Virus record (IMG/VR): IMGVR_UViG_3300021963_000131
Location: 1-62,484 of that record
Strand: one strand, 5' to 3'
Length of the DNA stretch: 62,484 bases
DNA from: a virus
Shown here piece by piece: positions 1,894 through 44,948 of the stretch. Made by a program: the position numbers and the translations under genes. Below the pieces are notes generated by a model that saw nothing but the letters and a program-made list of their open reading frames with translations, searched no databases and had not been told where the DNA came from. Every line of letters begins with the position of its first letter. The stretch's first letter is position 1.

Positions 1894-2089
1894 TTTCAAA
1901 TTCCTCATAACGTTGCACAAGGTCTTGTACTTCCATCCTTGCACGGCGCAGACCTTGGATTACGCCACACAAATTCTTATATTCAGCAAAGTCTTTACAG
2001 TTTCCTTCAGCCATTGCATCACTTACTTCCCGCTCTCGTTCTCTGAGTTTATTAAATAAGTGATCTAGCATCTGCCGCTCATGCGCCAT
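1886..2089 (-). CDS. small coiled-coil protein after the portal gene
   Basis: 67 residues, almost wholly helical and highly charged (LREREREVSDAMAEG near the N-terminus). Its ATG overlaps the portal stop codon (TAATG), and its own end overlaps the GroES-like start by 8 bases, so it is tightly coupled in the packaging operon. Small helical proteins at this position are common in podovirus head operons. Function unknown. Confidence 0.7.
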   Translation of the reverse strand: MAHERQMLDHLFNKLREREREVSDAMAEGNCKDFAEYKNLCGVIQGLRRARMEVQDLVQRYEEFEND

Positions 2090-4470
2090 TAACTACCGCC
2101 TTTCATACGTGATTTAATAAGATCAAGCTGTAGCTTGCGTTCGTTTTGCTGGTTCTGGTTCTGAAGCCGTATGCCTTCTTTCTGTGCTTCTACAGCGATC
2201 CGCTGCTGCTCAACGTTCAACCGCTTTTCAGCAATCTGTGCATCAATAGAGTCTTTCTGCGCTTTGCGCTGCTGCTCCATACCCTTGATCTGCAACTCCT
2301 GCTGCTGCATCTGAACCAGCGGATCTGCTGACATCTGTTGTGCTTGCTGTTGCGCAGCCTCAGCTTGATGAATCTGCAAGACCTGCTGTGCAGCCTCGGC
2401 AACATATTTAGCCATTGCCAACTCTTCAGCTTCAGAGACCTCCTGCTCAGGTCCGGGCAGCGGCGCACCCACACGCTGCTCAATCTCTTGACGGTATCTA
2501 AACCCTAAGTGCTCGGCAACGTGAGCCATCATCGCGGCCTGCATGGTTTGTGCCATTGGATTCTGACCTATGGTCTGCATAATGCTTGGGTCTTGCAAGA
2601 AGGTCATATGTGCTGTGATGTGCGCCTGATGATCCTGATAAATGAACGCTTTTAGCGGTACACCTTTGAGCACATTCATGTTCTCGGTTATAGGATCTTT
2701 GGGTTTCTGATCATCCGGCAGGGGTACTAGTTTGTCGGCGTTAGGAATACCCAACACATCCAACATCTGCCTATGAAGGCGAGGCATGTCATATAACTGA
2801 GGGGCACCTTGGGCTAGTTGTAAAGCGGCTTGATACTGCACAACCCGCTGAGCCATCGTCGAGGCGTTAGGATCAGACACGGGAATAACTTCGACAATGT
2901 CGTAGTCCTCAGCCTTAACCTGTGGGGTTCCATCCTGCGGCACGTAGCTGTAATCAGGTGAGGTGTACTCCCTGATAATTTCTTTGAGCAGCTTGAACTC
3001 TTCTTTCATCGCCGCATGGATGCGAGCCTGCACTGCACCCATCGTCTTTAACTGCCGCTCCAAGAGAGCTAGCGTCGTACCCACCGGAGCCTGACTCGAC
3101 ATATCGCTGATCTTCATATCAGCCATACCACTGAGCCGTCGTGCTTCTTCGGTAATCTGATTGAGTAGTGCTAGCAGCGTAGCACTGGGTTCTTTATAGG
3201 GCAGCGGCAGGATGTTGTCCCTGATCGCACCTCCCGGCACATCTACATCTCGCCATTCACCCGGAGCAATCGGCGTGTCATCACCTTTGATCCGCAGACC
3301 ACGAGCCTTTAACCCACCGGGGAGATTAGATAGCGACCCTGCATCCACCAACTGACGGATCAGCATGGTGCCTGCCGTGGCGTAGCCACCGATAATGTGA
3401 ATTAACCCAAAGCCATAAGCACCAAACCCAGGGATATACATATAGTGCACAAAGTGCTGACGCGCACGTTTCTGGGGGTCGTCTTCTCTGTAATTACGCC
3501 GTATGGCTAAAACTTTACTGGTGCCTTTATCAATCGTAATGACATAGGGCAGTGGCAGTTCTTCCTCATACCCCGGCAAGTCATACTCGATATGCACTTC
3601 GCATATCTGATACCGCTCGTCTTTAGTTTGCTCAACGCCTTCTTTTTGCGCTTTAGCTTTTTCAATATCCGTTTGATTTGCAAACGGGTCACCAAGATCA
3701 ATATCTCGATAAAATCTGCTGTACTGTAATCGTTTAATATCATTTTTAGTTTTACGCATCATGTGCGTAAGACGATCTGTACGGCGGATATTAGTTACGC
3801 CATATGGAAGAATGACATCTTCCGCAGGAATATAAAATGAAACCTGTCGTTCTAACGACGGATCATAATAAACCTTTTTAAATGACGAGCCTGCTAATGC
3901 AACGCCCCATAATGCGCGTTCATGCTCTGATCGATATTCAGGCATTTTGTCAGTTAGCTGATAATTCATATCAGCTTTTACGCGTTTACCCGCTTCTTCA
4001 ATATCAGGGGTAAACTGCCCAATAATTTGCGTCTTTACAGGCCCACCTGCCGGAAATGTTTCCATAATAGATTCGCTTTGAAAACGAATCGCTGCTTCAG
4101 TCAGCAACGTAGAGAACACACCGCAGGCACCATCCCAAGGCTCAGTGACTTCGTCATAACGTAGCCCAAGAACATCCAATCCTTTTACATAGGTATCAAC
4201 CCAATCTTTGCGGGAGTTAATATCTGCTTCAACCAACTCCATCACATCACTAGCGACTCTTTGCAAATCATTTTCTTGCATGAACTCGGCTAGATTAGAG
4301 TCAAACGCTTCTTCCCCATCCTCACCCCCCGGCTCGATCTCAATCTCCACCCCACCCATACCAATCGTTACGGATTCAGGATCTTCGATCTCAATCTCAA
4401 TAGGTGCTTCTTCAAGTGCCAAGGCTTCAAGTCCTTCGGGCATCTCGTACAGTGCTTTATCAATAGCCAT
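2089..4470 (-). CDS. portal protein (head-to-tail connector)
   Basis: 793 residues, within the usual size of P22-type portal proteins (700-800). The gene follows the large terminase with a 9-base gap, and an AGGACA site precedes the ATG at 4470. The first 50 residues are strongly acidic. The body carries WDGACGVFSTLLTEAAIRFQ, typical of the portal wing, and the C-terminal third is Gln/Ala-rich coiled coil (about 650-790), as in the P22 portal barrel. It would form the dodecameric ring through which DNA is packaged and ejected. Confidence 0.9.
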   Translation of the reverse strand: MAIDKALYEMPEGLEALALEEAPIEIEIEDPESVTIGMGGVEIEIEPGGEDGEEAFDSNLAEFMQENDLQRVASDVMELVEADINSRKDWVDTYVKGLDVLGLRYDEVTEPWDGACGVFSTLLTEAAIRFQSESIMETFPAGGPVKTQIIGQFTPDIEEAGKRVKADMNYQLTDKMPEYRSEHERALWGVALAGSSFKKVYYDPSLERQVSFYIPAEDVILPYGVTNIRRTDRLTHMMRKTKNDIKRLQYSRFYRDIDLGDPFANQTDIEKAKAQKEGVEQTKDERYQICEVHIEYDLPGYEEELPLPYVITIDKGTSKVLAIRRNYREDDPQKRARQHFVHYMYIPGFGAYGFGLIHIIGGYATAGTMLIRQLVDAGSLSNLPGGLKARGLRIKGDDTPIAPGEWRDVDVPGGAIRDNILPLPYKEPSATLLALLNQITEEARRLSGMADMKISDMSSQAPVGTTLALLERQLKTMGAVQARIHAAMKEEFKLLKEIIREYTSPDYSYVPQDGTPQVKAEDYDIVEVIPVSDPNASTMAQRVVQYQAALQLAQGAPQLYDMPRLHRQMLDVLGIPNADKLVPLPDDQKPKDPITENMNVLKGVPLKAFIYQDHQAHITAHMTFLQDPSIMQTIGQNPMAQTMQAAMMAHVAEHLGFRYRQEIEQRVGAPLPGPEQEVSEAEELAMAKYVAEAAQQVLQIHQAEAAQQQAQQMSADPLVQMQQQELQIKGMEQQRKAQKDSIDAQIAEKRLNVEQQRIAVEAQKEGIRLQNQNQQNERKLQLDLIKSRMKGGS

Positions 4471-16774: not shown

Positions 16775-17150
16775 ACAACTCAGGGTACTCAAGTACGTTA
16801 AGAAACGGACAACACCACCCACTGTCAGGGACATAGCCTTGCAGACGAAGCTCGATAAGAGCACTGTTTATGCGGTGATGACCAGACTTGTGCGGTGGGG
16901 TTGTGTTGAGAGTTTTTTAAAGAAAGATCCCAACAGGCCGTACATCACGGCAGAGCGGCACTACAGATTTATAACGATGGAACCCACAAAACAGGAGAAG
17001 CTATTCCAGAAACAAGAAGATCGTTTGTATTCCAAGAAGTTTGCCAAGGCTAGGGTGACGCTACCCGAGCCTTTTTTCAGTGATCCATTCAACATGACAG
17101 GAGCAAGAGATGCACATCAAGACAACATCAGAAAGCACCAACGTCCTTGA
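16749..17150 (+). CDS. winged helix-turn-helix DNA-binding protein
   Basis: 133 residues. Residues 5-55 (PLTAKQLRVLKYVKKR..., VRDIALQTKLDKSTVYAVM, RLVRWGCVE) form a clear winged HTH: two helices, recognition helix with STVYAVM, then the wing. The C-terminal part is basic and unstructured. Likely a transcription regulator, possibly the factor reading the repeated palindromes or dyads of the early region; that link is untested. Confidence 0.7.
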   Translation: MTPQPLTAKQLRVLKYVKKRTTPPTVRDIALQTKLDKSTVYAVMTRLVRWGCVESFLKKDPNRPYITAERHYRFITMEPTKQEKLFQKQEDRLYSKKFAKARVTLPEPFFSDPFNMTGARDAHQDNIRKHQRP

Positions 17151-17286
17151 AACATTCAAGCGTCACTGGAGACTGCTCAAGCAGCCGTACCCGTGGAAAG
17201 ATCCCAAAGTTATTGCAGAGCGCAAGCGTATTGCAGAACTTGATAAAGCGCGTATCGCGTTCAGACTAAGTGGAGGTGTGGAATGA
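17110..17286 (+). CDS. small basic protein (58 aa)
   Basis: ATG at 17110 preceded by CAGGAG, overlapping the wHTH gene by 41 bases and stopping at 17284-17286. 58 residues with 14 Lys/Arg and a predicted C-terminal helix (KVIAERKRIAELDKARIAF). Good ribosome site and tight spacing support it; family not recognised. The 59 bases that follow are AT-rich leader of the next gene. Confidence 0.55.
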   Translation: MHIKTTSESTNVLETFKRHWRLLKQPYPWKDPKVIAERKRIAELDKARIAFRLSGGVE

Positions 17287-17345
17287 CTTAATAAAAATTG
17301 TTGCTTAACTTACGTTGATAAAAACTAATTTAGTACGAGGACAAA

Positions 17346-18110
17346 ATGGCTACAAAGAAAGTTACGGAAAATACCATTCAGATTGTTGAGATGGAAACTC
17401 AGACGGTTACGTTTCACGTGATCGGCACTACACCTAAGATCTGCAACCGTATGCCTGAGAAGGCATGGCAGCAGTTGTTGCTTCCCTCTGGTCGCAAGAC
17501 TGCCGCTGAGAAAGCAGGATCAATGAAGCACGATCCGTTGGTTGAGTATCGCTCGTCTCCATACCGCATGCCATCAGGTGCTGCAACGGAACTAGCTGTT
17601 CTTGCTACGCAGTTTAAGGGTGCGTTGCGTAATGCTGCGTTGGATATGCCAGGAGCTAAGAAGTCTCAGATTGGACGCTTGGCATACGTGGAGGGGGAGC
17701 GCATTGAGATGTACGGTGTTCCTAAGATCTTCTCAAGTATCACTCGCTCAGCAGACATCAATAAAACCCCTGACGTTCGTACTCGTGCGATTCTTCCCAA
17801 GTGGGCATGCAAGGTTGATATTACTTATGTGCGTCCCGTGTTGAACCATACCGTCATCTCTAACCTCTTCGCTACAGCAGGTATTACGATGGGCGTGGGT
17901 GATTGGAGACCTGAGAAGGGTTCAGGTAACTACGGTCGCTACAAGATTGTGGATGCTGATGATCCTGAGTTCTTAGAGATTATTAAGAACGGTGGGCGTG
18001 ATGCACAGCTTGAGGCACTTGAGAATCCTGAAGCATACGACGATGAGACCGAGGAGCTGTTGTCTTGGTTTAATGCCGAGACCAAGCGCCGTGGTTTGAA
18101 AGTAGCTTAA
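17346..18110 (+). CDS. RAMP (Cas7)-like protein
   Basis: 254 residues. An N-terminal strand TVTFHVIGTTPKICNRM (20-36) is followed by FKGALRNA (90-97), matching the LKGxxR signature of RAMP-fold Cas7/Csm3-type proteins. A glycine-rich stretch at 183-201 ends in GSGNYGRYKI, like the GxGxxGRxxI loop of RAMPs. RAMPs are RRM-fold proteins that polymerise along RNA. I recall similar proteins as conserved hypotheticals in many phages. No cas1, cas2 or CRISPR repeats are nearby. Ten bases before its partner gene and directly upstream of the 5-nt-periodic array. The RAMP call is from motifs only. Confidence 0.55.
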   Translation: MATKKVTENTIQIVEMETQTVTFHVIGTTPKICNRMPEKAWQQLLLPSGRKTAAEKAGSMKHDPLVEYRSSPYRMPSGAATELAVLATQFKGALRNAALDMPGAKKSQIGRLAYVEGERIEMYGVPKIFSSITRSADINKTPDVRTRAILPKWACKVDITYVRPVLNHTVISNLFATAGITMGVGDWRPEKGSGNYGRYKIVDADDPEFLEIIKNGGRDAQLEALENPEAYDDETEELLSWFNAETKRRGLKVA

Positions 18111-18119
18111 GGAGTAAAC

Positions 18120-18584
18120 ATGGACAGAGCCGCAATAGCCAAGAGGTTAGAGGAAATTGCGGCCCTCCACGGAGGGCTGCTTACACCAGACATCGTAGTG
18201 GCAGATGCTAAAGACCCATCGAGTCCTTTGCATACTTACTTTGATTGGAACCTTAGCAGTGCAGCACATAAGCACTGGATTGATACCGCACGTAATTTAA
18301 TTGCTTCTGTGCGTGTGGTTGTAACCACAGAGAAAGTTGTTATCAAAGCACCTTTCTATCTGCGCGACCCAAGCAAGAAAGGTAATGAGCAAGGCTACAC
18401 CACACTCACCAAGGTACGTAGCGATAAAGATCTGTCGAGAGAAGTTATCAATAATGAAGTTGCACTCATTGTTGGTGCGTTACGAAGAGCAAAGAACGTA
18501 GCGCAGGCACTCGATATGGTGGATGAGATGGAAGAACTTCTTGAACAAGTCTTAGTCCTACGCAACAAGCTGGAAAAGGTTTAG
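18120..18584 (+). CDS. partner protein of the RAMP-like gene, unknown
   Basis: 154 residues, TAAGGAG before the ATG. Helical N-terminus (AAIAKRLEEIAALHGG), the phrase DPSSPLHTYFDWN, a short beta-rich centre (RVVVTTEKVVIKAPFYLRD) and a long C-terminal helical region (residues 100-154) ending in a coiled coil. Its stop codon TAG is immediately followed by the first GGCA-type word of the array (TAGGCAGG). Function unknown; it may be a second subunit of the same particle. Confidence 0.65.
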   Translation: MDRAAIAKRLEEIAALHGGLLTPDIVVADAKDPSSPLHTYFDWNLSSAAHKHWIDTARNLIASVRVVVTTEKVVIKAPFYLRDPSKKGNEQGYTTLTKVRSDKDLSREVINNEVALIVGALRRAKNVAQALDMVDEMEELLEQVLVLRNKLEKV

Positions 18585-19188
18585 GCAGGCATGGGTAGGT
18601 TCGGTCTGGTTTGACAAGGTGCGGTCTGGTAGGGCAGGTCGGGTCGGGATAGGTGCGGTGCGGTTCGGCACGGAGAGGCTTGGCAGGTAGGGTTCGGTTC
18701 GGCAGAGTGAGATCCGGTCTGGTATGGCAGGGCAGGTATTGCAAGGTGTGATGGGGTCTGGTGCGATCAGGCGCGGATAGGTTGGGCAGGTGAGGTGGGG
18801 TGTGTTGCAATCAGGTTGGGTTATTTTGGTGAGGCAGGTCAGGCGTGGTGTGGTGGATGAGGTATGGAGGGATGCGTTTAGGCAGGTTTCGTATGGAACG
18901 GATGGGTATTACATGGTTCGGTTCGGCAGGTCTGGTCTTGTGCGACTAGGTTGGGAGCGGTGTTTGAGGTGTGGTCGGGCATGGTACGGCAGGTCTGGTG
19001 AGGTTAGGAGCGATAAGGTCAGGTGAGGATTGGTGGGGCAGGTTAGGTGACGTACGGTTGTATTGGTGTGGTGAGTTTCTTATGGCAGGTTAGGTGAGGT
19101 CGGGATAGGTGTCTTATGACAATTCTGGCAGGTGAGGTGAGGTCGGGTGCGAACCGGCAAGGTGGGGTGAGGTTTGTTATGGCAGGTA
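18584..19188 (+). repeat. pentamer-phased (GGTNN)n / GGCA array, non-coding
   Basis: About 600 bases in which GG recurs every 5 bases, with the phase moving back one base at the word GGCAGG. Blocks between GGCA words start at 18588, 18637, 18686, 18735, 18789, 18837, 18885, 18929, 18992, 19041, 19088 and 19131. Four are exactly 49 bases (nine pentamers plus GGCA); the others are 43-63. In my hand parse 84 of 111 units begin with GG and the third base is usually T. The plus strand is very poor in C. No ORF with a ribosome site spans it. It lies inside the rightward operon, so it should be transcribed. Confidence 0.85.
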
Positions 19189-19205
19189 ATTTACAGGAGA
19201 TTTAC

Positions 19206-19373
19206 ATGGAAGATTTTGAAGTAGCACTTAGAGATCAGTTCGCTATGGCTGCTATCACGGGCATCCTTGCGGGTAAGTGGGGACAGATGCCTCAGTACAA
19301 ACCGGAAGAAGCTTTCGCTGACTTTGCGTACAAGATGGCAGACGCCATGATGAAACGGAGAGAAAAAGAATGA
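19206..19373 (+). CDS. small protein after the array
   Basis: 55 residues from the ATG at 19206, which has ACAGGAG upstream; the frame is open further 5' but only through the array. Helical (FEVALRDQFAMAAITGILAG, then AFADFAYKMADAMMKRREKE). Small proteins with a YxxADAMMxxRE ending are frequent in phage replication regions. Function unknown. Ends in an ATGA overlap. Confidence 0.65.
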   Translation: MEDFEVALRDQFAMAAITGILAGKWGQMPQYKPEEAFADFAYKMADAMMKRREKE

Positions 19374-19609
19374 GCATAATGAATCAAAACAAATTAGCAG
19401 AAACAATAACGCAACCCGTGTTTGTTCTGTACGGCATACCGTACTTGCCTAGCTACGTGGACAAGCATCGGTGGGTTGGCCCCGGTCGTCCCAGAGATCG
19501 CACTGAGTTCACAACTACACAACTTATAGCGAGTGGGGCACGACTCACTACAGCTAACTTGTGGGAAAGATCTTGGACAAAGGAGGTCAAGGGATGGAGA
19601 ATTTTATAG
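19370..19609 (+). CDS. small protein, unknown
   Basis: 79 residues starting in an ATGA overlap. Contains YGIPYLPSYVDKHRWVGPGRP near its centre. Overlaps the following membrane protein by 16 bases. Family not recognised. Confidence 0.5.
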   Translation: MSIMNQNKLAETITQPVFVLYGIPYLPSYVDKHRWVGPGRPRDRTEFTTTQLIASGARLTTANLWERSWTKEVKGWRIL

Positions 19610-19734
19610 TTTTTATTATTGGGGTTTTGTTTGGGTTTATGTTCGGTGTGCTGTCTGGTAGACGAAGCATCGTGAAAGAAGCCCAAGCACTTGTAGCGCA
19701 AGCAATTATGGAGGTAAGGAAACATGCACGATAG
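19594..19734 (+). CDS. 46-residue single-pass membrane protein
   Basis: ATG at 19594 with a perfect AGGAGG 9 bases upstream. Residues 4-21 (FIVFIIGVLFGFMFGVLS) form one transmembrane helix, followed by a basic Arg-Arg and a cytoplasmic helix (VKEAQALVAQAIMEVRKHAR). Overlaps both neighbours. Function unknown. Confidence 0.6.
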   Translation: MENFIVFIIGVLFGFMFGVLSGRRSIVKEAQALVAQAIMEVRKHAR

Positions 19735-19966
19735 TGTTAACCATCCAAAACATTACACCTCACACCCTAGCGGCGTGGAGTGTATTGAAGTCACAGAACA
19801 TTTTAACTTTTGTATCGGCAATGCCATTAAATATCTTTGGCGAGCAGGGCTCAAAGGCGAGCAGGTTGAAGATCTGAGAAAGGCACGTTGGTATATCGAC
19901 CGTGAGATTGCACGGATACTGAACAACGCAGACGAACCTCCCTTCATGAAGAGGAGTGAGGAATGA
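19724..19966 (+). CDS. DUF3310 protein
   Basis: 80 residues with the full family signature: NHPKHYTSHPSGVECIEVTE, then FNFCIGNAIKYLWRAGLKG and DLRKARWYIDREI. DUF3310 is a small phage family, sometimes annotated as a nucleotide kinase-like protein without good proof. Likely cytoplasmic, in nucleotide or DNA metabolism. Confidence 0.85.
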   Translation: MHDSVNHPKHYTSHPSGVECIEVTEHFNFCIGNAIKYLWRAGLKGEQVEDLRKARWYIDREIARILNNADEPPFMKRSEE

Positions 19967-20148
19967 GCCCTGACTATAAGTTCGCCCTGCTTGCCGCATG
20001 GCTTGAGGGTTACGCCGAGGGCTTGCCTGATTACTGCACGACAGAGAAATTTAAAATAAAAGAAGCTGCTGAGTTATTAATGGAAGTGTACGAGCAGCGC
20101 ATGAAGGGGAAGGAAGAATGGAAACAACATGCGGGGGATAGAGCATGA
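19963..20148 (+). CDS. small protein, unknown
   Basis: 61 residues in a chain of ATGA overlaps. Helical and charged (KIKEAAELLMEVYEQRMKGK). Not recognised. Confidence 0.5.
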   Translation: MSPDYKFALLAAWLEGYAEGLPDYCTTEKFKIKEAAELLMEVYEQRMKGKEEWKQHAGDRA

Positions 20149-20357
20149 GCAAGATTATTAAGTTCACAGGTATAACAAAATTAGATTTACCAGTAGACAG
20201 GGTACTTGATGCGGCAAAAGAAACTCTTGATGGCGTAGTCATCATGGGTTACACGACAGACGGGGAAGAATATTTTGCGTCAACCTACGCCGATGGCGGC
20301 ACGGTGCTGTGGCTAACGGAACGCATGAAGAAGATGTTATTAGAGGTGGAAGCATGA
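20145..20357 (+). CDS. small alpha/beta protein, unknown
   Basis: 70 residues; the pattern LDLPVDRVLDAAKETLDGVVIMGYTTDGEEYFASTY recalls a phage family with a conserved DGVVIxGYxxDGxxYFASS core, seen widely but without known function. Start and stop both overlap the neighbours. Confidence 0.65.
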   Translation: MSKIIKFTGITKLDLPVDRVLDAAKETLDGVVIMGYTTDGEEYFASTYADGGTVLWLTERMKKMLLEVEA

Positions 20358-20623
20358 GCAGAGAAGCTATAAAACAACCCGAAGCCTTGCAGATGGCTGA
20401 TGATTTGGATCACGAGTTCACGCAAGGCAGAATCAGTAATTACAACGGGCGCAAAGCCGCCGCCGAACTGCGCCGATTGCATGAGGTGAATCAGGATCTA
20501 CTGAAGGCACTCAACACAATCCTCAACATATGCTTGCTAGATAACGGGCACTGGGCCAAGACGATAGAACGCGAGGCTCATGAAGCCATCGCTAAAGCAA
20601 CAGGAGAGAAGAATCATGGATAG
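20354..20623 (+). CDS. small helical protein, unknown
   Basis: 89 residues from the ATGA overlap at 20354. Pattern ALQMADDLDHEF..., then NGRKAAAELRRLHEVNQDLLKALN is shared by many small phage helical proteins. Possible coiled coil. Function unknown. Confidence 0.6.
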   Translation: MSREAIKQPEALQMADDLDHEFTQGRISNYNGRKAAAELRRLHEVNQDLLKALNTILNICLLDNGHWAKTIEREAHEAIAKATGEKNHG

Positions 20624-28300: not shown

Positions 28301-28579
28301 ATGCCCTACTCTGAACGAACCAAAAACTCAGTTAAACACGCCCCACGTACGCTAGGCTCGCGCCTTGGACGATGGGCCATACACCGAGACTTCTCTGTAC
28401 TACGTATTTCAAAATTTACTGGAGCGACAAGGCAGACGGTTTACAACTGGATGTCAGGCGTGGAGGTCACCCCTGCCTACCGCTCACGTGTACAGGAACT
28501 CATCAATATTCTTGAAAGGCAACCAACAGCCGATCACGCATGGAGACAGATATGCGAGGACTACAACCTACAAGCATGA
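28301..28579 (+). CDS. helix-turn-helix protein
   Basis: 92 residues, basic. RISKFTGATRQTVYNWMSGVEVTP is a clear HTH (turn at TGATRQ, recognition helix QTVYNWM). Such proteins lie between SSB and primase genes in several phages. It may control early gene shut-off or help the primase; no weak/strong ribosome site distinguishes the start. Confidence 0.65.
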   Translation: MPYSERTKNSVKHAPRTLGSRLGRWAIHRDFSVLRISKFTGATRQTVYNWMSGVEVTPAYRSRVQELINILERQPTADHAWRQICEDYNLQA

Positions 28580-28734
28580 CAGACTCAGAGCTGTTGAATT
28601 ATTGTGAAATTAATTGGGAGGAAGTTGAACCTGCGTACTTGAAAGAGTTAATACAACGTATGGCGCGTTACATAGAAACGCACGTACCTGACATCGCTGA
28701 GCCAAAAGACGGACGCCAGTTACCCCTGTTCTGA
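28576..28734 (+). CDS. small protein, unknown
   Basis: 52 residues from the ATGA overlap at 28576. Acidic helical protein with the ending DGRQLPLF, a pattern seen in clamp-binding peptides (QLxLF), so it might contact the host sliding clamp; this is a guess from seven residues. Confidence 0.5.
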   Translation: MTDSELLNYCEINWEEVEPAYLKELIQRMARYIETHVPDIAEPKDGRQLPLF

Positions 28735-28748
28735 CCTGTGGAGTTTTC

Positions 28749-31619
28749 ATGCAACCGCAAGAGTTTCTGGCGGCAGTCCTCCCATCGACGGGCGTGTACT
28801 GTATAGCCGAGCTAACAAGTAAAAAGAAAGAGCATGTTTTTGCAACAAACTTAGGAGAGTTTCAGCATGTCGTAGATACGTGGGTTAAGAACAGGCAGGA
28901 CGTTTACTTCGCACTTGCTACCTTCAAACAAGAAGGAAGTCGTACCGCTAAAAATGCAGAGTTCATACGCGCTGCATTTCTAGATATGGACGGGTACGAA
29001 ACCAAGCGTGATGCTGCCGAGGCGTTGGATGTGTTCCTTGAAAAGACCGACCTTGCGCAGTTAGGCCAGCCACTTGTCGTTGATTCAGGTGGTGGGCTTC
29101 ATGTGTATTGGCCGTTCACTGAAGACATACCGATTGATGTTTGGAAACCTGTTGCAGAGAACTTAAAGCGTTTGTGTGCACAGGAGAACATGCGCATCGA
29201 CAACAGCGTGACGGCTGATGCAGCGCGTGTGCTGCGCATACCGGGTACTGTTAACTTCAAACCAAAGTACCCCAAACCTCGTGCTGTGCGTATCATGGTG
29301 GAGGCGAAGCCCAGAGCATTTGACTTTGGTACGTTCTCTGGACAACTCATTAAGAAGCTAAACGGACATGCCTATAGCCCCTTACTGGCACAGAAGATTG
29401 AGATCGAAGGCGAACGACCTAAAGGCGCACGGTCAGAGTCAGCGATCAAGATGTTTGACAATCTGCAAAGCGAGTTTAAGCTTTTGTGGATTAAGACGAT
29501 TGAAGGCACAGGTTGTAAACAGCTTCAGTACTACAAGGACCACGCCAGTGAAGACGGCATGGAACCGCTATGGCGAGGCCTACTATCTTGGACAACGCGT
29601 TGTACAGATGGAGGTGACTATGCGAGCCGCATTTCGGAGATGCACCCGTATGACGAAGATCGTATGCGGCAGAAGCTGCGTGAGATTAAAGGCCCGTATC
29701 CGTGCGTCAAGATGGATAGCGAGAATCCGGGCGTTTGTACAAAGTGCCCGCACTGGGGAAAGATAACTAATCCACTCATCCTGTGCCGCACGGTGGCAAC
29801 GGATAACACTGAGAAACATATTGAGATACATAACGAGGAAGAAGAACTTCCCGTACAGATTGTTCGCCCTGCACCCCCACGGGGTTACAGCTACGGTGCA
29901 AAGGGTGGCGTGTTTGCCGACAAGACGCTTGAGGACGACGAAGGAAAGAAGACTAAAAAATCCGTCATGATCCTGCCGTACACATTGTTTGCGGTGGACA
30001 TTCTCAAACAGCCAACGGGTGAGCATGTTGTCCACATGATTGCCGAACGCGACGACGAGTACCACGACATACTGCTCAATCAAAAGTCAGTCGTCAGTAA
30101 AGACGAAACCGTTAAGACTCTCGCAGCACAAAACATCATTGCCTCAACAGGCTCAGGCAACGACAAGAACTTGTTTGAGTACGTGCGCGGGTGTGTGGAA
30201 AAGGCTAGCGTATCTCAGCAACCGCTTGTCATACCGTCAAACTACGGATGGCAGAATCACGACCGTCTGCTGACAGGGCACAACGCGCCCTTTGTGCATG
30301 GTGGCATGGTGTACCAGAACGGTGTGGCGCGTAAGGTTCCCATGCCTGACCTCCAGAACATCACAGCTAGTATGCGCTCGATGGGCACTCTGGACGGATG
30401 GAAGAACATCATACAAGTGCTGATTGATAAAGGACTCGACGACATACTGGCTATGCTCTGCGTGGGGTTGGGCTCGCCGTTCATGGCGTTCAGTAAGCTG
30501 GCGGGGATGACATTTCACTTGGGGTCTACGGAGTCCGGCACGGGTAAATCGTTAGCGTTACGTTTGGCAGCTAGCGTGTGGGGGCATCCTGATCACTTCC
30601 GTGTCAGCCGCTCTACGTCTGACGTAGCCATGATTCACCATGCAGGGATGCTTGGTTCAGTACCGCTGATCTCTGACGAGATTACGGTTAAGAACCGGCG
30701 TGATTTTGAATGGTTCCCTGCCATGTTGTTTGACTTCAGTGAGGGTAAGGGCAAGGAGCGCATGGAGTCAGGTGCGAACAAAGAGAGGATCAACACTACA
30801 GCATGGTCACTGCTTGCACTGATGGCATCGAACACGCACGTGGTGGACTACATGACGGGTAACCGCAAGCACTCATCTGAAGGTGAGCTGCGCCGTGTAC
30901 TTGAGCTGACACTCACGAACACGTTAACGTGGGACGATCATGAGCGTGATGCCATCGTGTCGCTGTCACAGAACTACGGGGTAGTCGGTCCCCACTATGC
31001 GAAATGGTTGTCTCAGAATGCGATGGAAGCACAGAAGCTGTACAAGAAGATTGAGAAACACATTCGCATGGACTTCCGCTCACCCGATGATGAACGCTTC
31101 TGGACAGCAGGCTGCACATCTTGTATCGCTGGGGCTGTTGCTATGGGCAGTAAACACATGGGGCTGATTGATCTGCCTGTTGAGCGCATCATGCGTGTGT
31201 TCCGTAACCTAGTGTTTAAGAGCAGGGACACTGTGCAGAGCAGCAAGCGCACAGTCGAGGATGTACTCAACAGCTATACACGCGAGTTCTACGGTAAGTT
31301 TGTTGTCATCAAGGCTGTGGACGGTACGCTCGCTGCAACGCTCGGTGACGGTGGTGTGATCGATGAAACCATATCTCGGTCTGAGATTGCAGGGCGTGTT
31401 GAACACGGGCTGACGCCGGGGTACATCGACTACGTGATTGAAGAAAACTTACTGAAGTCTTACTGCGCATCCATGAGTTTTGGATACGCAGACTTTAAGA
31501 AGCAGATCGAGAGGCTGTACCGTGTGACATACGGTAAGACAGACTTGATGAAGAAAACCCGTGGGCCACAGATGCGCGTCAATGCAATCCGAATCTCAAT
31601 GCCAGAAATCGAAGACTGA
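28749..31619 (+). CDS. primase-helicase (PrimPol-type primase plus DUF927-like ATPase)
   Basis: 956 residues. N-terminal primase half: FLDMDG (D79, D81), DSGGGLHVYWPF (112-123), ARVLRIPGTVNFK, the residues of RepB/AEP-type primases. A cysteine set (CVKMDS...CTKCPHWG) lies near residues 318-340. The C-terminal half is a DUF927-like helicase with Walker A STESGTGKS (about 592-600) and ISDEITV as Walker B, followed by GANKERINTTAW. The single protein would prime and unwind at the fork. No DnaB- or T7-type helicase is elsewhere, so it is the likely replicative helicase. Confidence 0.85.
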   Translation: MQPQEFLAAVLPSTGVYCIAELTSKKKEHVFATNLGEFQHVVDTWVKNRQDVYFALATFKQEGSRTAKNAEFIRAAFLDMDGYETKRDAAEALDVFLEKTDLAQLGQPLVVDSGGGLHVYWPFTEDIPIDVWKPVAENLKRLCAQENMRIDNSVTADAARVLRIPGTVNFKPKYPKPRAVRIMVEAKPRAFDFGTFSGQLIKKLNGHAYSPLLAQKIEIEGERPKGARSESAIKMFDNLQSEFKLLWIKTIEGTGCKQLQYYKDHASEDGMEPLWRGLLSWTTRCTDGGDYASRISEMHPYDEDRMRQKLREIKGPYPCVKMDSENPGVCTKCPHWGKITNPLILCRTVATDNTEKHIEIHNEEEELPVQIVRPAPPRGYSYGAKGGVFADKTLEDDEGKKTKKSVMILPYTLFAVDILKQPTGEHVVHMIAERDDEYHDILLNQKSVVSKDETVKTLAAQNIIASTGSGNDKNLFEYVRGCVEKASVSQQPLVIPSNYGWQNHDRLLTGHNAPFVHGGMVYQNGVARKVPMPDLQNITASMRSMGTLDGWKNIIQVLIDKGLDDILAMLCVGLGSPFMAFSKLAGMTFHLGSTESGTGKSLALRLAASVWGHPDHFRVSRSTSDVAMIHHAGMLGSVPLISDEITVKNRRDFEWFPAMLFDFSEGKGKERMESGANKERINTTAWSLLALMASNTHVVDYMTGNRKHSSEGELRRVLELTLTNTLTWDDHERDAIVSLSQNYGVVGPHYAKWLSQNAMEAQKLYKKIEKHIRMDFRSPDDERFWTAGCTSCIAGAVAMGSKHMGLIDLPVERIMRVFRNLVFKSRDTVQSSKRTVEDVLNSYTREFYGKFVVIKAVDGTLAATLGDGGVIDETISRSEIAGRVEHGLTPGYIDYVIEENLLKSYCASMSFGYADFKKQIERLYRVTYGKTDLMKKTRGPQMRVNAIRISMPEIED

Positions 31620-31803
31620 GTTTCCCTTCCCGTGGGAGCACGTTCCACCGGGAGGGGGTTTCTTCGTCCCTACACTCAATCCACAACGTACTATAGAGAA
31701 AGCACACAGGGCGGCAATCGACGCCCGTGTGTTTCGATTTACTACTACCGTTTGTATTATCCAGCAGAAGCTTGGCGTCTATTTTCAGCGGTGGCGCGTA
31801 TAA
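31582..31803 (+). CDS. last early gene: small GGGFFVPTL-motif protein
   Basis: 73 residues from the ATG at 31582, inside the end of the primase gene, running 47 bases into the 3' end of the convergent giant gene. FPWEHVPPGGGFFVPTLNPQRTIEKAHRAAID and the final KLGVYFQRWRV match a short phage family with a VPxGxxFFVPTL core. No clear ribosome site. If real, the early and late transcripts overlap tail to tail. Confidence 0.55.
   Translation: MQSESQCQKSKTEFPFPWEHVPPGGGFFVPTLNPQRTIEKAHRAAIDARVFRFTTTVCIIQQKLGVYFQRWRV
31703..31731. terminator. bidirectional hairpin at the convergence of early and late genes
   Basis: CACACAGGGCG (31703-31713), 8-base loop, CGCCCGTGTG (31722-31731), one bulged base. 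On the plus strand it is followed by TTTCGATTT, on the minus strand by CTTTCTC. It sits within the small last early ORF and just past the giant gene stop. Weak T tracts make it a possible rather than certain terminator. Confidence 0.4.
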
Positions 31804-34800
31804 AGTTCTGCGCGTAGTTGATTCTTATCTGACGGATGCGCTCAAGCTCTGCTCGCTTCTGTTGAGGTGTCATGTCCTTGCGCTCGCGCACCTGTCGTTC
31901 GTAGGTAGCGTACTCGCCCATCTGTTGACGGAAAGATCCAGCCGAGGAAGCCAGTGAGATCAGCCCACGATTCTCTTGCAAGAACTCTTTGGCTGTTTCG
32001 TCATCACCCTTACGCATCAGCTCTTTGTACGTCTGCTGGCGTTGTTGAATGTTGCTGACAATCTCATATGCGTAGTTGATGAGCCCTTGAGCATCACGAG
32101 GCTGGAACAAACCACCAACAACTGGCATATCGCTAGGACGCATTTCAGCCGGAACTTTTCCGGGCTTCTCCAACACGGTGTTAGCCATGCTGGTCAACGC
32201 AAGTCCCAGCCCACCAAAGTATCCGCGAATGAGATAGTCAATCTGTATGGGCGATACACCGTATTCTTTACCTCCCACCGTAAAGCTGGCAAGACCGCTT
32301 AACGTTTTGGCAATCTCAGTGGTGTTTGACCTCATGCGTTGCGAAGGCGTAAACGCTTGTTCACGCTCGCTTTCAATACCGCGCCATGAGAAGAAGGAGT
32401 AGTTGGTCGCTACTTCAAGTGCTGGCTTAATAGCTTGCGGTATGAAACCGGGGATGCTGTTGAACAGAATGCTGCGTATGGCAGGGAACACTTGTCCAGC
32501 TTCTGCTTTACCAGACGACATGTTAACAATCATCTCAGGCAGTGCTTTAAACAGGTAGCCAACTTCAAACGGAATAGGTATGCGTACAGGTTCATCAAAC
32601 CCCGGCACGTACACAAAGAAGTTGTTGTACTTCTCATCAGGGTTAGCGTTCTTGTACGCTTCGTCGTCTTCCATCATGGCTGCATACGCTAGCGTCAATC
32701 CTGCAAGCAACATACCTCGCTGCCAGAATTTCTTGCGCACCTGCAAACGATCATTGAAAGGCATTCCCTTTGAGAAGCCCGAACGGTACAGCACGTCAAG
32801 ACCTTGGATCTGCGCATTCATGAACGGAACCATCATGGACATCAGGAACACGGAGGGGGACAACCCACGACGGTTAAAGTTCATCGACTCCAGCGTAGCG
32901 AGTGTGGCTTCCATATCGGACAGCCCCTGCTTGCGGAAATCGTTGTACAACACCACACGGGTAGAGGCGTCACCTTGAATAGCCAGCGCATCGAGCTTAG
33001 CCAGCTTAGTTGCCCACCCTTCTTTACCGCTTGCAATGTCTCGCAGGATGATACTCAAGTCTTCCGACGTACCAGTAAACACCTGCCCACCAAGCACACC
33101 ACGTTCACGTAACGCAGTCTCGCCTTCACTCTTGCCCTGACGCATTTTGCCCAGTTCTTTAAGCGAAGAGATTACAGGGATAAGGTTGCCGCCTGTCGTG
33201 AGCGCAGCCGATGTAGAGTCACGGAACAACTGCCTGAACGCATACAGCGGGTTACGTGTAACAAACAGTCGCAACGCACGGGCAGGAATGTTAAACATCT
33301 GTACAAGCTGTGGCACAGTGACTGCCACGCCCTCAAGACCTTTAACCAATAGCTCTGCGGGCACACCAAACGCTTCTGTGTCAATCACAGCGTGCATGTC
33401 TTCGCCACGTTCTTTGAAGCGTATGACGTTTGTACCTGCCGGTCCGTCACCCTTACCAATTTTGGCTACTGGAGAAAGGGTCGTGCCAAGGTCACGCAAC
33501 GTGTAAGCAACATTCTTGGTTGCAATATTGCGCAACGCAAGATCAACAAACATGTTGGTGTTTTGGACTGAGCTTGTAAAGAAGTCCAGAATCTTTGTGT
33601 TACCACCAACAAGTTGGTCTAAGTACGGTTGGTCTTTTAAGTTGCCTATTTTGATAGGACTAATTTCCCCACCAAGCATTAACTGAACAACGCCATTCTG
33701 CACACGGTAGTACGGTATGTAGTCGTTGGTGCTGAGCAGTTTGTTTTCTTGCTCTTTACTCAACGCCCCTGTCTGCACAGCAAAGTTAACAAGCCCTTTG
33801 TTGTACTCGTTATAAAGCTTACGTGCTTGTTCAAAGGGCGCTTTAATCTCAGGATGGGCGTCGATGTACTTCTTAAACCCAATCAAGTCACTCATCTTGA
33901 TCGACGGGTCAAAGTTCAGTGTCTCTAGCCCCACACGCTCAGCACGAATTGCAGCCATCCATGTGGTAAACATCTTATTGGCTGCATCCACATTCATATT
34001 TGGGATGCCCTTCAATGCAGCGGCAACATCTTTAAGAGAAGTTGTACCCCCGCTGCGCACCAAAAACTCTTCACTTCCATCAGCGCGTTTTTTCTTATCC
34101 AGAATCAGCGCACCGTTATTAACTGCTTCAGCCGTAAAGTTGTTGCGTTGATCGTGCATCCGCAAGAAGTATTGCATTTGCGTTGCAGCAAGCGAGTCTT
34201 TCATCTGCGAAGCTATGCGCATCACAGGTTCAAAACGATCAATATACTTGGTACGGAACACCATGCCGGTGTTACCACCAAAGATCTTGTCAGTTACGCT
34301 TGCAGGAGCGCCAACGAGTTTGTTAGTAATGTCTACAAAGTTTGTGGGCATGTCGGCAGGGAAAGCACCCTCACCTCTCCTAAACACAACATTACCATCA
34401 GCCGAACGGTATGCGCCTGTAGCACCTGACTTCATCACTTTGCGGGACTGTCTTAACAGATAGTAAACATCTGAGGCACTCAACGCGCCGTATCTGTTCA
34501 GCCCAAGCACTTCACGGAATACTTTACGCAGTGCGCCAATCATCTCCTGCACAAACCGTTTGATAGCACCAACGTTAGATTCAGTAACCCGTGCCTCTTC
34601 AACGTGTGCAATCAGCTCTCTTACAGCAGCGCGTTGCTGACCAATAACAGAAGCGCCAACACTTTGCAGGTTGATGATAGTGCCAGCCACTTCATCGTGC
34701 ACACCCATCTCTTTAGCTAGCCCAAGTATGCCCCCCGGCTGTGAATCAACACGGAAGACAAGATCATCAAGCCCACGCTCACCAAGCACCGTGTCAACGC

Positions 34801-37800
34801 CGTAGTGTCCAACTAACTCGTGTGCAATCGTGGTTTCAAGGTCAAGCATGTTGCCGTGGTTAGATCCAATGATGACAACCGTGCCATCCGGCATAACACC
34901 CCCACGCACTTTGGCAGTGTCTTGATCCATGCCTTGTTGCATGAGTGCGCGAATAAAACTCTTAGGCGCATCAAACAGTGTTTCAGCGTAAACAAGCTTG
35001 ACGCCTTTTGGCAAGCTAGCTTTAACTTGTTCAATTTTTTGACGTGCTTCTTTAAGGTCAACCATTGACCCTGCTTCATCATCAACACGGAAACTTGTTT
35101 CTCCCGCTGGGCCTGTTGATACAAGAAGCGTAGCGTCGTTTGTAAACTCAGTAACTTTTTCAGCAGTTGTGTCAAGACCAAACCGAGCGTTACGTGCGGC
35201 TGCTGTTTTTGCTCCTTGTAGAGCAAGACGTTCACGACGCTTCTCAGCAAGGGCAATATCAATGTCTGGCGTTTTACCCATTGCCAAACGTTGATCTGCT
35301 CCACCTCCTCTGAGTGGTTTAAGGCGTTGCTGCTTTGTTGCTACTTTTTCACCAGCAATAATTTCTTTGCCTGTATCGGTTAGGCGTGTTTGTTGCTCAG
35401 CTCGTGCTGCCGCATACATCTCAGCAGTTGTAAGGAGTACAGTATCTCCCTGCAACGCTGCAAGATCCGTACGAAGTTCTTTAATTTTGCCTTGAAGCTT
35501 TGACCGTTTTTGTGTGTCTGCATCAGGCGCGTCACGAAGTTCCTTGTTGGTTTTATCAATTAAAGACTGTATTTTTTCTTCAACGCTTTCGTCCGGCGCT
35601 TTGTATTTTTTAGCAAGCCGTTCAACCGCTGCTTGATAATTCTTCTCAATGTTGCGCTGCTCTTTTAACCAAACAGGCGTTTCGTTGAGCAACAATTTGC
35701 GCTCGTTTGAAAAGTCTTCCAAATAAACTGTACCGCCTCTGATCTCGTTCAAGCTTTCGCTCGACATATCGTTGGCATTTTTCTTATCGATTGCTTCTTC
35801 GATTTTTGTTTCTAGCGCACTAATTTTTTCCGTGAGCTTTTCAATCTGCTTGGGTTTTGTTGCTTGTTTAAGTTGTTTGTTAAGCGCGGCAACCTGAGCC
35901 CTAGATTCTTTGATGACTTTTAAGTTTGCTTTTACAAAATTGTTGTGCGCATTAATGTCGTTGATTTGCTGCTGAAGCGAAGCAACCTGCTGATCAATAA
36001 CAGTAGTTCTGTCTACGGTTTGTTTTTTACCATCAACAAAAAGCGTAACAACATCTTTCTGCTTTTGCGCAATTTTGCGAGCTTTCTTTAGTGCGTTGAT
36101 ACGCGTTTTTAACTCGGCAATAGTAGATGTAACAGGCAGTAAAACTTTGATTTGTTCTTTAGGCGTCGTAACGCGACGTGTAGCAGGAACAACTTTGTAT
36201 CTGTTAGTGATACCAAAAAACGCTTCGTTAATCGAGACAATGCCGTCCATCGCAGCAAGCTCTGCCTCTCTAATGCGTTTGTTCCTATCGTTAGCGTCCG
36301 CCATTTCTTTACGTACGCTTTCAAGCTGTGCAACAAGCGCACGTTGTTTATCCTGCTCAGTTTTTTGAGCACGTTCTTCGCCAATGTTTCTTTCGGCTCC
36401 GGGAAGTTGTTTAATTCTTTCAAGCCGCGCTTTCAAGCGATCAAGCTTTTCACGCTCTTGCTGTACACGAGAATCAAGCGCAGCTTGTAAACTAAGCTCT
36501 TGTTCAGTCAGTGCAGTTGGGCCTTGTTCAACAAGCTCATTGTATGCAATTTGCGTTTGATATAACGCAGACAGCGCATCGCTGTGATCTGCTTCAAGTT
36601 TTTTGAGCCGCGTATTTAAATCAACAACATCTTGATAAAAAGAATCCCCTTCTGTGCCTTGCAAAGAATTTTGCATTGCTTCAAGCCATGTTTTTATTTT
36701 GCTAATTTCATTTTCAAGTTTTTTAACGCGATCAACCAAAGGAGGGATGTCAGCCTCTAGCGTCTTTATATCTTCAATAAATTTTACAATTCCATTTGCT
36801 ACATCGTTAACCCCTGAAATCACTTTTCGTACTTCACCAAGCGTTTTTAGCGTTATGACTTCTTGATTGCGTACATCTTCAACAGCTTGGCTTATACGCT
36901 GTCGCAGCTCAATAACTTGCTTTCCGCGAATAATCTGTTGCGTTTCAGCAGCTTGCTTGTTAAGAAGTTGCTTAATGCCATTAATAACTTTAATGGAAGC
37001 TGCAAAAATTTCAGGTGTGCTACGTATAAATACCCTAGCGTCTTCACTATCGCTAAACAACTCAAGCTGCTGTTCCAACGTGGTTACTTCAGACTCACGT
37101 CTTAGCAATTCCTGAATCTTAGGCAGCAGTTCTGCTTGCCCTAAGTTATAGCGCATGGTTGGCACATCAGGCGCTTTTGCATTTATTAAGTCGTTTAGTT
37201 CGTCCCGCAACTTATCAATAGCCGCTTCACGTTCTTTTATCTGCTCCACTGTTATAAGGGCAGCGCGTTGTTCTGGCTTTAACGGTTTTTGTAATGCTTT
37301 TTGTGCATCTGCAATATCGCGGTCGAGTGCTGCACGAGCTTCAAGAATTTCTTGTTGCTTTGCTTCTTGCTGTTTAAGATTTTCTTTTTTCCAAGCACGT
37401 TCGTTTTTATTTACTTGTGCTTCTGTGCTAATTGGAAGTTCAGCAGTGCCTGCACGAGAAGCTAATACTTTTCCTTCTGTGCGTTTTGACCCAAGTACCA
37501 ACTGCAACATACGTGGTGCTTGCCCACGCAGATTAGGATCATTGGTGTTAAACGGCATATCAATACCGTTGATGATGCGGTCGGTTTGTTCCAACACAGC
37601 ATCAACTAACTCTTCAGACGGTTTTGAAATTGTTTCAAATTCTGCAAACGCTTGTGCAAGCTTGGGATCAAACCCTAAGTTTGTAACTGCTACACGATTG
37701 CGAATACGCTCAATTTGATCAAGGGCTGTTCTAAGTTTTGCCTCTGGTGTGCCACGAGCTTTTTCTGCACGAAGCTCAAAAAGTTTCTGAGACTCACCAC

Positions 37801-40800
37801 GTAACTCAAACTCCCCTTCTTTTGAAGTGCGTTTTGCTTGGGGGTTACTGTAGGTCGTAACAATATCTTCAAGCTGTTCTTCAATAAGGCTAGCCGCTTT
37901 ACGTGGGTCAGCAAAAGGACGCTCTTCAGTTTTACGCGTATCGCTTGCCCTTGTTGGCGTAACCAACACTTCTACAATCTGAGTCCGCGCAGGCGCATCA
38001 ATTTCTTTCAAAAACGCATTGATACTTTTTTGAATTCCAAGCCTTTCTAAATTTGCACTTTGTCTGTCAAGTGGTTCTTTTTTAGCCTCAAGCTCTTCAA
38101 TCTTTTTTAACTTTGCCGGATCTGGGATTGCAGATGGGTCTGCGTATTTAGCATCGCTTAACTCTTTACGTAAAGCTTTAATCTCATCGGCAATAGTTCT
38201 AATTTGCGCAATAAGTTTGTTTTGCAGCCCAACAGCGTTTTGAATGCGGTTTACTAGCTGTTTTAAATTGGTAAGATCTTTAGGCGTAGTAAGGATTCGT
38301 TTTTCAAGAACTTGCGTAAGTCTGTCCAGCAGTTCTTCAGAACTACGTGCTTGCAAACGGTCTGATAGTTCTGTCAGCAGTGCCTCAGCTTCTTTACGAA
38401 CCGTATCCGCTTCTTCTTTGTTTAACGCACGGAAACCTTTTTCAGCTCTTTGCTCATTGATTTGCTGCACCAGTGCATCAAGGTAACGCGTTTTAATTTG
38501 CTCTGTTTTTGTTTTGCGATCTTTGGTTAACGGTAAGATGGACTGCGACTCTTGCAGACGTGCAAGCTCAAGGTCAGCTTGCCGAACACGCTTCTCATCC
38601 CCAGCTCTTTTTGCCGCAGCTTTAAATTTTTCAAGCCTGTTAACGCGGCGTTCAAACTGAACAGGGTCCGTGGGTTTCTTTAACAACGCAACTGCATCAA
38701 ACGCATAGTCAACAAAGTCTTGGAACGCTGTATCTTTTGCAGACGCTGCATCCGGGGCAACAGCAAAACGCTCCTCACGTAGCTGCTCAAGCTGTTTGTT
38801 TAAGTTTCCAAGACGTTCTTCATCACGCGTTTCACGCGCAATCTGCCTTTGTTTATCAAGCGCTTCAATCTGTTTGTCAATATCGCTACGGGTTCTTACA
38901 GGCTTGGTTGGCGCTGTCGTTGTCTTTTTAGTTTCAATAGCAGAAACAGCTAACGAACCTGCAATGCCTTCACCTTTTTCAGGTGTTACTTCGGGCTTCT
39001 CAAGATACTGACGCAGAACTTGAAGCTGAGCTTCTTTTCGTAATGCAAGCAAACCTTTTTCGTTAAGCTGGCTTGACCCGTCAGGTTTAAGTAAAGATTC
39101 ATCGCTTGAAAGTAAAGCTTTTTGTTCTGCTTCAAGCTTGGTAATACGTTCCTGAATAAGACCACGGATGGACAGTTCTCCAACTGTCGCGTCGATATTG
39201 CGCCCTCCAACTACCTTTCGGAAAGGGGTAGTTGGCAAGCCAAGAGCTTTTGCAATAGGTTGCGTAATACGCCCACGGTCAAGGTTAAATGCTAAGTTTG
39301 AATTAAGGGCTTCATCACTTTGTTGTTCAAACTCTGTGTTCGCTTGTTCTGCGGCTTCTCTGGCATCCATACCAGAAGCTCTAAGTTCTGCTGCGCGAGT
39401 TTTAATAAAGTCTTGTTCAGAAAGCTGCGTAACAGGTAAATCCAGCGCAGCCGCAACCATGCGCGGGTTCTCAAGCCTACGCTCAACAGCCGTTATGCCA
39501 GACTCAAACCCTGCAAGCTCAAATTGCTCCTGACGTTGCTGCCCCGCAGCAGCACCACGTGTTTCAATATCTTTAACAAAGTCTGCATCTGCGGCTTCAA
39601 GGGCTTCAACATAAGATGCCGGAAACCCTAACAAAGTTTCGTCTTGTTTCTTATCAAGCGCGTACTCTTCAGCCGATCCGTATATTGTTTTGAGTTGCGG
39701 GTTTTTCTTAAACTCTTTCTCAGCTTGTTTTATTTCATCATCAGTCAGCGCCTGCCGTGCCTGCAAACGGCGTGACTCTTGCATAGAAGCAAGTTCAGCC
39801 TTTTCCTGCCGTGCTGTTTCGTCTGCTCTAAGCTTAGCAAGTAACTCTTGCTGTTCTTTATCTTTAGCTTCTTGTTGCAGTTGTGCCTGTTTCTCACGCT
39901 CAATACGCTGAGCATCCATTGCTTGTGCGTAGGTGTTAAACGACGGGTATTGCTTTTTAAGCTCTGTACCTGTGACTGGATCGTTCCAATCTTGAAATGC
40001 TTTAATAAGTACAGCCTGTGGCATACGCGCCATGCGGTTGTAGCCTTCAGCCTGCGTTGCTTCAATGTCAACATCTGACCGTGGGGCGCGTAAAACTCCA
40101 AGCCCTTTTGACTCAGGCGCATCAAAAGCAAAACCAGACGGCGAAACAACATTACCAAACTCATCAACAACAGGACGACCTTTAGCAGCCTCCTGCTCCT
40201 CACGCTCACGCATGATGTCAGCAAAGGTACGCTGCGCTTCAGGCACGTTCTCTTTAATCTCGCTGGCTATTTCACGTAGCCGCGATTTGATTTCTGCCTG
40301 TCGTGCTTCTGCGTCAAACGTTTGTTCTTTTGTTAACGACTTAGCTTCAATGGCTTGCTGTATACGAATGAACTCATCACGTAGCTGTACACGCTCAGCG
40401 TTTAGTTCTCGTGCATATTCAGGCGTACGTTTACGCGCCTGCTCTTGCTCCAGTGCCTGCTGACGCTGTTTAACTTTTTCTTGCTCAAGCTGATCTCTTG
40501 CCCCACTGCGTTCCTGCACACGAGCAAGTGCACCAAAGGCTGGAGCTGACAACGCAGTTTGATAAGCCGTATCGCCGTATTCTTTAAGCGCTTCATCTGA
40601 AGCTAGCGGGAGCCCAGCTTGCAAACGCTCAAGCATTGACTGCGTAACTTCGGTCGGAACTTCAACGCCTATACCACGTGCTGCACCACCAGCAAGGGTA
40701 CGCTTCAGGCTTTGCTCAACAAGTGCTTTGCCAGCTTGCGTTTCAAGCGCTTTTTCAACAGGTCTGCCGATGAGCTTACCAACAAGTTGTTTGCCCAAAA

Positions 40801-43292: not shown

Positions 43293-44948
<1,656 letters not shown>

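Follow-up and report, generated by a model that had tools for sequence, protein, structure and literature searches.

The closest described counterpart of the locus reported here is VIPR, a phage-borne system presented in a 2026 preprint, in which a RAMP protein, Vipr, and an accessory gene (vap; vap1 to vap6) are combined with guide RNAs composed of GGY/NN repeats (PMC13142463). As the preprint describes it, the NN dinucleotides of the guide bind double-stranded DNA with one base skipped between them and repress genes of competing elements, and repression occurs from either strand (PMC13142463). The system is delimited there by a Vipr that is separate from Cas5, Cas6, and Cas7 and by guides of about 9 to 16 GGY/NN repeats; its architectures differ by type, with type II guides having a conserved structured tail, and "staggered arrays with overlapping vrRNAs" are mentioned in fig. 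S18 (PMC13142463).

We analyzed a stretch of viral DNA of 62,484 nucleotides (the window) and conclude with high confidence that one segment of it is a guide-RNA array belonging to a VIPR system, together with the Vipr encoded by gene 17346 and the vap represented by gene 18120 (Table 1). In positions 18584 to 19195, 69 GG-GG pairs were found at lag 5, compared with 23.8 ± 4.0 in 500 dinucleotide-preserving shuffles of the same segment (z = 11.2), and lags 10 (z = 7.8), 44 (z = 7.2), and 49 (z = 6.2) were also raised. Both the 5-base spacing of GG that a first-pass annotation of the sequence had noticed and the lag-49 signal that it proposed to look for are therefore present. A 200-base stretch in the array holds 29 such lag-5 pairs; elsewhere in the window the count per stretch is at most 5 on the same strand and at most 7 on the opposite strand.

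Table 1. Coordinates of the VIPR locus in the window
Feature	Positions	Strand	Evidence or content
vipr homologue, RAMP/Cas7-fold, 254 aa, phrog_4652	17346-18110	+	AlphaFold2 fold, PDB matches, SUSP1 Vipr homology
vap-like accessory gene, 154 aa, phrog_15946	18120-18584	+	adjoins array in 71/101 GGCAGG-array loci
Guide array	18584-19186	+	12 cassettes of GGCA + 8-12 GGYNN units, closed by 13th GGCAGG
Cassette 1	18584-18632	+	NN = AT TA TC CT TT AA GC CT AG; also in L018
Cassette 2	18633-18681	+	NN = CG CG TA GC GC TC AC GA TT; also in L013
Cassette 3	18682-18730	+	NN = AG TC TC AG GA CC CT AT, then doubled GGCAG; also in L011
Cassette 4	18731-18784	+	NN = AT AA GT GG CT GC CA GC TA TG; also in L009, L010, L011
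Cassette 5	18785-18832	+	variant in L009
Cassette 6	18833-18880	+	also in L009; variants in L011, L013, L016, L019
Cassette 7	18881-18924	+	also in L011; variant in L009
Cassette 8	18925-18987	+	12 units; also in L010, L011
Cassette 9	18988-19036	+	variant in L009
Cassette 10	19037-19083	+	variant in L010
Cassette 11 (universal)	19084-19126	+	NN = TA GA CG TA GT AT AA CT; window + 11/11 distinct relatives; matches Sak4-like gene codons YDRYVIKL
Cassette 12	19127-19180	+	NN = GA GA CG GC CC AA GG GA TT AT; also in L009
Terminal GGCAGG	19181-19186	+	closes array, shortly before start codon 19206

GGCA occupies the first four bases of every cassette, which places each copy exactly four bases before a block start listed in the first-pass annotation, and with the terminal copy n cassettes have n + 1 copies of GGCAGG; block length is typically four more than a multiple of five (5n + 4). 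The first G of the array is the G of the TAG stop codon of gene 18120, and the 13th GGCAGG lies immediately 5' of the ribosome-binding site of gene 19206. Position 3 of the unit is a pyrimidine (T or C) in most units, and the composition across 659 cassettes is G at 91%, G at 90%, and C or T at 86%, followed by near-random NN, which corresponds to the GGY/NN repeats of VIPR guides. The array as DNA had no match in a search of phage records. A sigma-70-type scan, which other promoter types escape, found no promoter-like sites in the array or just upstream of it, a result that fits cotranscription with the two upstream genes.

The AlphaFold2 model of the gene 17346 product (pLDDT, 94.9) was compared with the PDB by Foldseek, and its top matches were all CRISPR RAMPs (Csm3, Cas7, and gRAMP; E value of about 1e-5), at TM-scores of 0.3 to 0.45 by query length, modest values that indicate only a distant relationship. 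The family has a conserved core, R..W...G...G.G.WRP...G, whose G-x-G-x-WRP...G motif answers to the glycine-rich loop of the small RAMP-fold Vipr, and its profile matches the Vipr of Escherichia phage SUSP1, the preprint's model phage, at an E value of 6.7e-30; the SUSP1 gene matched (28477 to 29079) lies between the two GGTNN tracts of that genome (27872 to 27990 and 29142 to 29260). Gene 17346 thus encodes a homologue of SUSP1 Vipr with a CRISPR-type RAMP fold, and by this homology the locus is a VIPR system. A model of the gene 18120 product, good at the local level (92.8), had no PDB match at an E value of ≤1 in a fold search. The profile of its family, phrog_15946, did not match the accessory gene of SUSP1, which thus belongs to a different family.

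With the type II VIPR system of SUSP1 the locus shares a homologous Vipr, GGY/NN guides, a 1-nt skip at the wobble position, carriage by a phage, and targets in competing mobile elements (PMC13142463). It differs in its guides, since SUSP1, as described in the preprint, has a few separate guides of ~100 nt with a structured tail, whereas the array type studied here has 8 to 20 abutting, tail-less cassettes with GGCA between them (PMC13142463). The matched target, a Sak4-like annealing gene, is also unlike that of SUSP1. The structured tail of type II guides was not found: cassettes abut directly, and an Rfam search of positions 17000 to 20500 returned zero matches. As VIPR architecture varies by type in the preprint, this absence counts against type II-like guides and not against VIPR (PMC13142463). 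The staggered arrays mentioned there possibly share the present architecture, in which GGYNN runs on continuously and the phase slips by one base from guide to guide (PMC13142463). The guides here appear to abut and not to overlap, because the target match stops at the GGCA boundaries.

The locus also resembles class 1 CRISPR-Cas systems, with their Cas7/Csm3 backbone, in its RAMP fold, periodic nonpaired positions, and n + 1 boundary elements; it is unlike them in having no CRISPR repeats, a period of 5 instead of 6 nt, and a guide that lies within the repeat. CRISPR-Cas was rejected as an explanation, because Tandem Repeats Finder reported nothing in the array and cas families were not found among the ten neighboring proteins scanned, which agrees with the first-pass view that the array is neither a satellite nor a CRISPR. 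Satellite, ribozyme, and coding explanations were likewise rejected. TRAP is an oligomer that binds RNA at 5-nt repeats, and its (G/U)AGNN targets had been offered as one model for the array, next to a protein filament, linked to gene 17346, that leaves the variable bases exposed as a guide. The TRAP model, which has in common with the array an oligomer on RNA repeats of 5 nt, was rejected: the unit here is GGY-NN and not (G/U)AG-NN, the adjoining protein is a RAMP, and the NN hold target information. The filament model stands, upheld by the RAMP fold, the homology to SUSP1 Vipr, and NN that match targets with a one-base skip; a putative footprint of 5 nt per protein subunit is plausible.

Array-derived DNA patterns alone were used to collect more than 200 further viral loci; by profile search, 117 of them contain a relative of gene 17346 and 86 a relative of gene 18120. 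A set of 101 loci, each with a cluster of four or more GGCAGG and again collected by array DNA patterns only, included 81 with Vipr and 71 with an adjacent vap, as expected of VIPR, all on the array strand and within 2 kb. This substantiates the link between the array and gene 17346 that had been suspected from the window. In the 71 loci with a relative of gene 18120, the gap to the array has a median of 16 nt. The complete trio of Vipr, phrog_15946 vap, and GGCA-punctuated array occurs in about 70 further phage loci. GGCA punctuation is associated with the accessory gene in loci collected without GGCAGG in the query (5/6 versus 6/27 loci; P = 0.01), an association that shared ancestry could also cause.

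Both genes and GGCAGG arrays are found in mycobacteriophage Saal (gp51 and gp52) and in Gordonia phages ODay and Pipp; the arrays of these cultured phages are unannotated (L591:2074-2374, L590:3095-3311, and L592:3111-3380), and their vipr and vap homologues are annotated as hypothetical proteins. Long GGTNN arrays that adjoin a Vipr homologue and have neither GGCA punctuation nor phrog_15946 were seen in L070, L057, L046, L066, and L064 and apparently represent other VIPR types. A contig of 158,651 bases (L205) has 49 GGCAGG in about 1.5 kb (about 1960 to 3510, minus strand). Elsewhere in the window, three genes at 11900 to 15148 encode an AAA ATPase (phrog_1297), a DUF3150 protein, and a DUF2201 VWA-like protein, a module also present in the array-bearing L077, L181, L247, and L260; an open reading frame of 3,223 aa lies on the structural-gene strand (31757 to 41428, minus strand), and short tandem repeats occur at 44477 to 44507 (GTTGCT, 5 copies) and 45454 to 45497 (TTTTATCGGTAG, 3.7 copies).

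Fourteen close relatives of gene 17346 were found among viral contigs that also span the downstream region, and comparison was made across 12 distinct phages, namely, the window and 11 relatives. An array of 8 to 20 cassettes is present at the equivalent position in all 12; in none of the 11 distinct relatives was it missing or random between retained flanking genes. Single cassettes recur across relatives in differing combinations with their order roughly kept and behave as units that are gained, lost, and swapped among related phages at GGCA boundaries. Unrelated cassettes agree at 61 to 75% of unit positions 1 to 3 and at 25 to 29%, about random, of positions 4 and 5. Homologous cassettes differ at 8 to 10% of sites in positions 1 to 3 (position 3 almost only by C/T) and at 3 to 4% of sites in positions 4 and 5. 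Within homologous cassettes NN thus appear to be conserved above GGY, a difference that is strong pairwise, has a P value of 0.047 with each cassette family counted once, and is taken as supporting evidence only. In the universal cassette, 8 to 10 GGY bases and no NN bases differ between clades. These data bear on the idea that the array serves as an RNA or DNA site for protein binding (a TRAP-like decoy, a centromere, or a packaging site) and that its NN are mere spacers. Such a site would explain the 5-nt phasing and the adjacent protein of an oligomer-forming type, but it would not lead one to expect NN that stay fixed between clades while GGY drifts, a trend also seen in general, or NN whose matches to real genes skip one base, at the wobble position, and are confirmed by a held-out dinucleotide (see below), and we regard it as highly improbable.

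The gapped search with variable bases alone that the first-pass annotation had proposed led, for cassette 11, to a Sak4-like gene, with matches in at least 120 viral contigs and at 99 bacterial sites. The query consisted of the first eight NN with one skipped base between NN pairs, and the ninth NN, which is CA in the relatives and was held out of the query, was present in 117 of the 120 matches listed. Nearly all of the listed viral matches lie inside one gene (...FDSPEHEPYDRYVIKLQARAAALLQE...), where the third base of the codon is the one skipped. Among the matches listed, all nine NN agree (18/18) at skip 1 in 118 loci and at skips 0, 2, and 3 in none, where the loci had been preselected by the first eight NN and the independent parts of the result are the ninth NN and the single gene. 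In bacterial genomes, 98 of 99 matches fall in the Sak4-like gene, largely in Rhodobacteraceae and other Alphaproteobacteria as judged from record titles. The nearest relatives of the window's DNA polymerase are those of Rhizobium phages (33% identity), which is compatible with an alphaproteobacterial host for the window phage as well. The target gene belongs to Pfam family AAA_24 and to phrog_124, described in PHROGs as "Sak4-like ssDNA annealing protein." It was not found in the window record, and the other array carriers checked had none or only weak partial matches. As in VIPR, this one window cassette matches competing mobile elements, and its guide is probably used against competing viruses. 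The universal cassette of one relative (L014:6970) closes with AA in place of CA; among the 120 matches listed, the Sak4-like gene at L319:7209 is the sole target with AA at the ninth NN, and guide-target covariation is possible.

Searches of large collections with four window cassettes yielded a clear target for only one of them. Cassette 4 had 15 matches across several gene families without the held-out NN and no convincing target, and a match of it in L113, with two mismatches, was put down to chance because its skip falls on the first codon position. A search with cassette 6 gave four matches, about chance level, and none of 395 genomes from the Tropicimonas family matched cassette 8 (24 bases, up to three mismatches). 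A relatives' cassette, TC TC AG GC TG AT TC GC, gave 82 matches over many families, with no enrichment of the held-out NN; this cassette and cassette 4 served as negative controls for the target test. An initial test of all cassettes against the array-bearing loci showed no skip-1 excess.

All 499 cassettes that have at least 9 units, drawn from every array locus, were also compared with the target loci and with the other collected loci. A cassette of L260 and L188, whose Vipr is 24% identical to that of the window, matches the Sak4-like gene at 18/18 positions, 93 nt downstream of the cassette 11 site and in codon phase (TVKADVGFN), and a cassette of L200 matches it at 16/18 positions, 63 nt upstream of the cassette 11 site and also in codon phase. 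In both matches the skipped base is the wobble position. About 0.04 perfect matches are expected by chance over the whole search, and perfect matches at skips other than 1 were absent; one window cassette and two from other lineages thus match solely at skip 1, the rule of VIPR guides. Three VIPR lineages therefore appear to converge on one gene. A chance agreement of the cassette with Sak4 as an abundant, conserved gene, the true targets lying elsewhere, would accord with how common this gene is in phages and with the chance-like matches of other cassettes. Against it are the ninth NN in 117 of the 120 matches listed, the restriction to essentially one gene family, the wobble phase, and the other in-frame sites matched by two more lineages, one of them perfectly, and we consider coincidence very unlikely.

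All three sites in the Sak4-like gene are sense oriented relative to the gene, so that a guide, having the mRNA sequence, would base pair with the template strand of the DNA and not with the mRNA. This orientation speaks against guides that act on RNA, such as the Sak4 mRNA, as do the binding of double-stranded DNA and the repression from either strand described in the preprint (PMC13142463). Action on RNA would have a precedent in the type III CRISPR RAMP complexes, the closest folds, which bind RNA, and nothing specific to this array favors it; its probability is minimal.

With guides that act on DNA, the array would probably be cotranscribed with vipr and vap in one message, and cleavage of the transcript at GGCA, or close to it, would release guides of 8 to 12 GGYNN units. 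Vipr would coat each guide, with the GGY triplets held by protein and unread, and the NN pairs would base pair with double-stranded DNA as NN-skip-NN, so that two of five bases are informative; binding would then silence the target gene. The guide retained throughout the close relatives, if no other, would be directed at the Sak4-like annealing protein that other phages and prophages encode, chiefly those of alphaproteobacterial hosts. RNA production, coating by Vipr, and repression instead of cleavage are presumed here by analogy with the preprint (PMC13142463). GGCA is the probable guide boundary and processing point, because cassette inheritance and target match both end at GGCA boundaries. 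Tail-less GGCA-delimited guides, cassette shuffling, and Sak4 targeting are apparently not part of the main text of the preprint (PMC13142463). We tentatively suggest, as a proposal that falls somewhat short of an even chance, that the locus represents a VIPR type whose CRISPR-like array logic goes beyond the preprint, in which tail-less guides are delimited by a 4-nt GGCA "micro-repeat" (n + 1 copies) that is recognized or cut with the help of the type-specific accessory protein, cassettes are exchanged, and distant lineages converge on the Sak4-like protein of rivals.

Our analysis supports, from environmental phages and independently of the original authors' data, the existence of a second, noncontiguous guide-RNA code in viruses. 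To this it adds a recombination gene of rival phages as a likely natural target, which guides of three lineages match at a different site each; GGCA as a simple candidate for the guide boundary; and evidence for the exchange of guides between phages. It also adds cultured carriers in which these proposals may be tested, mycobacteriophage Saal and its relatives and Gordonia phages ODay and Pipp.
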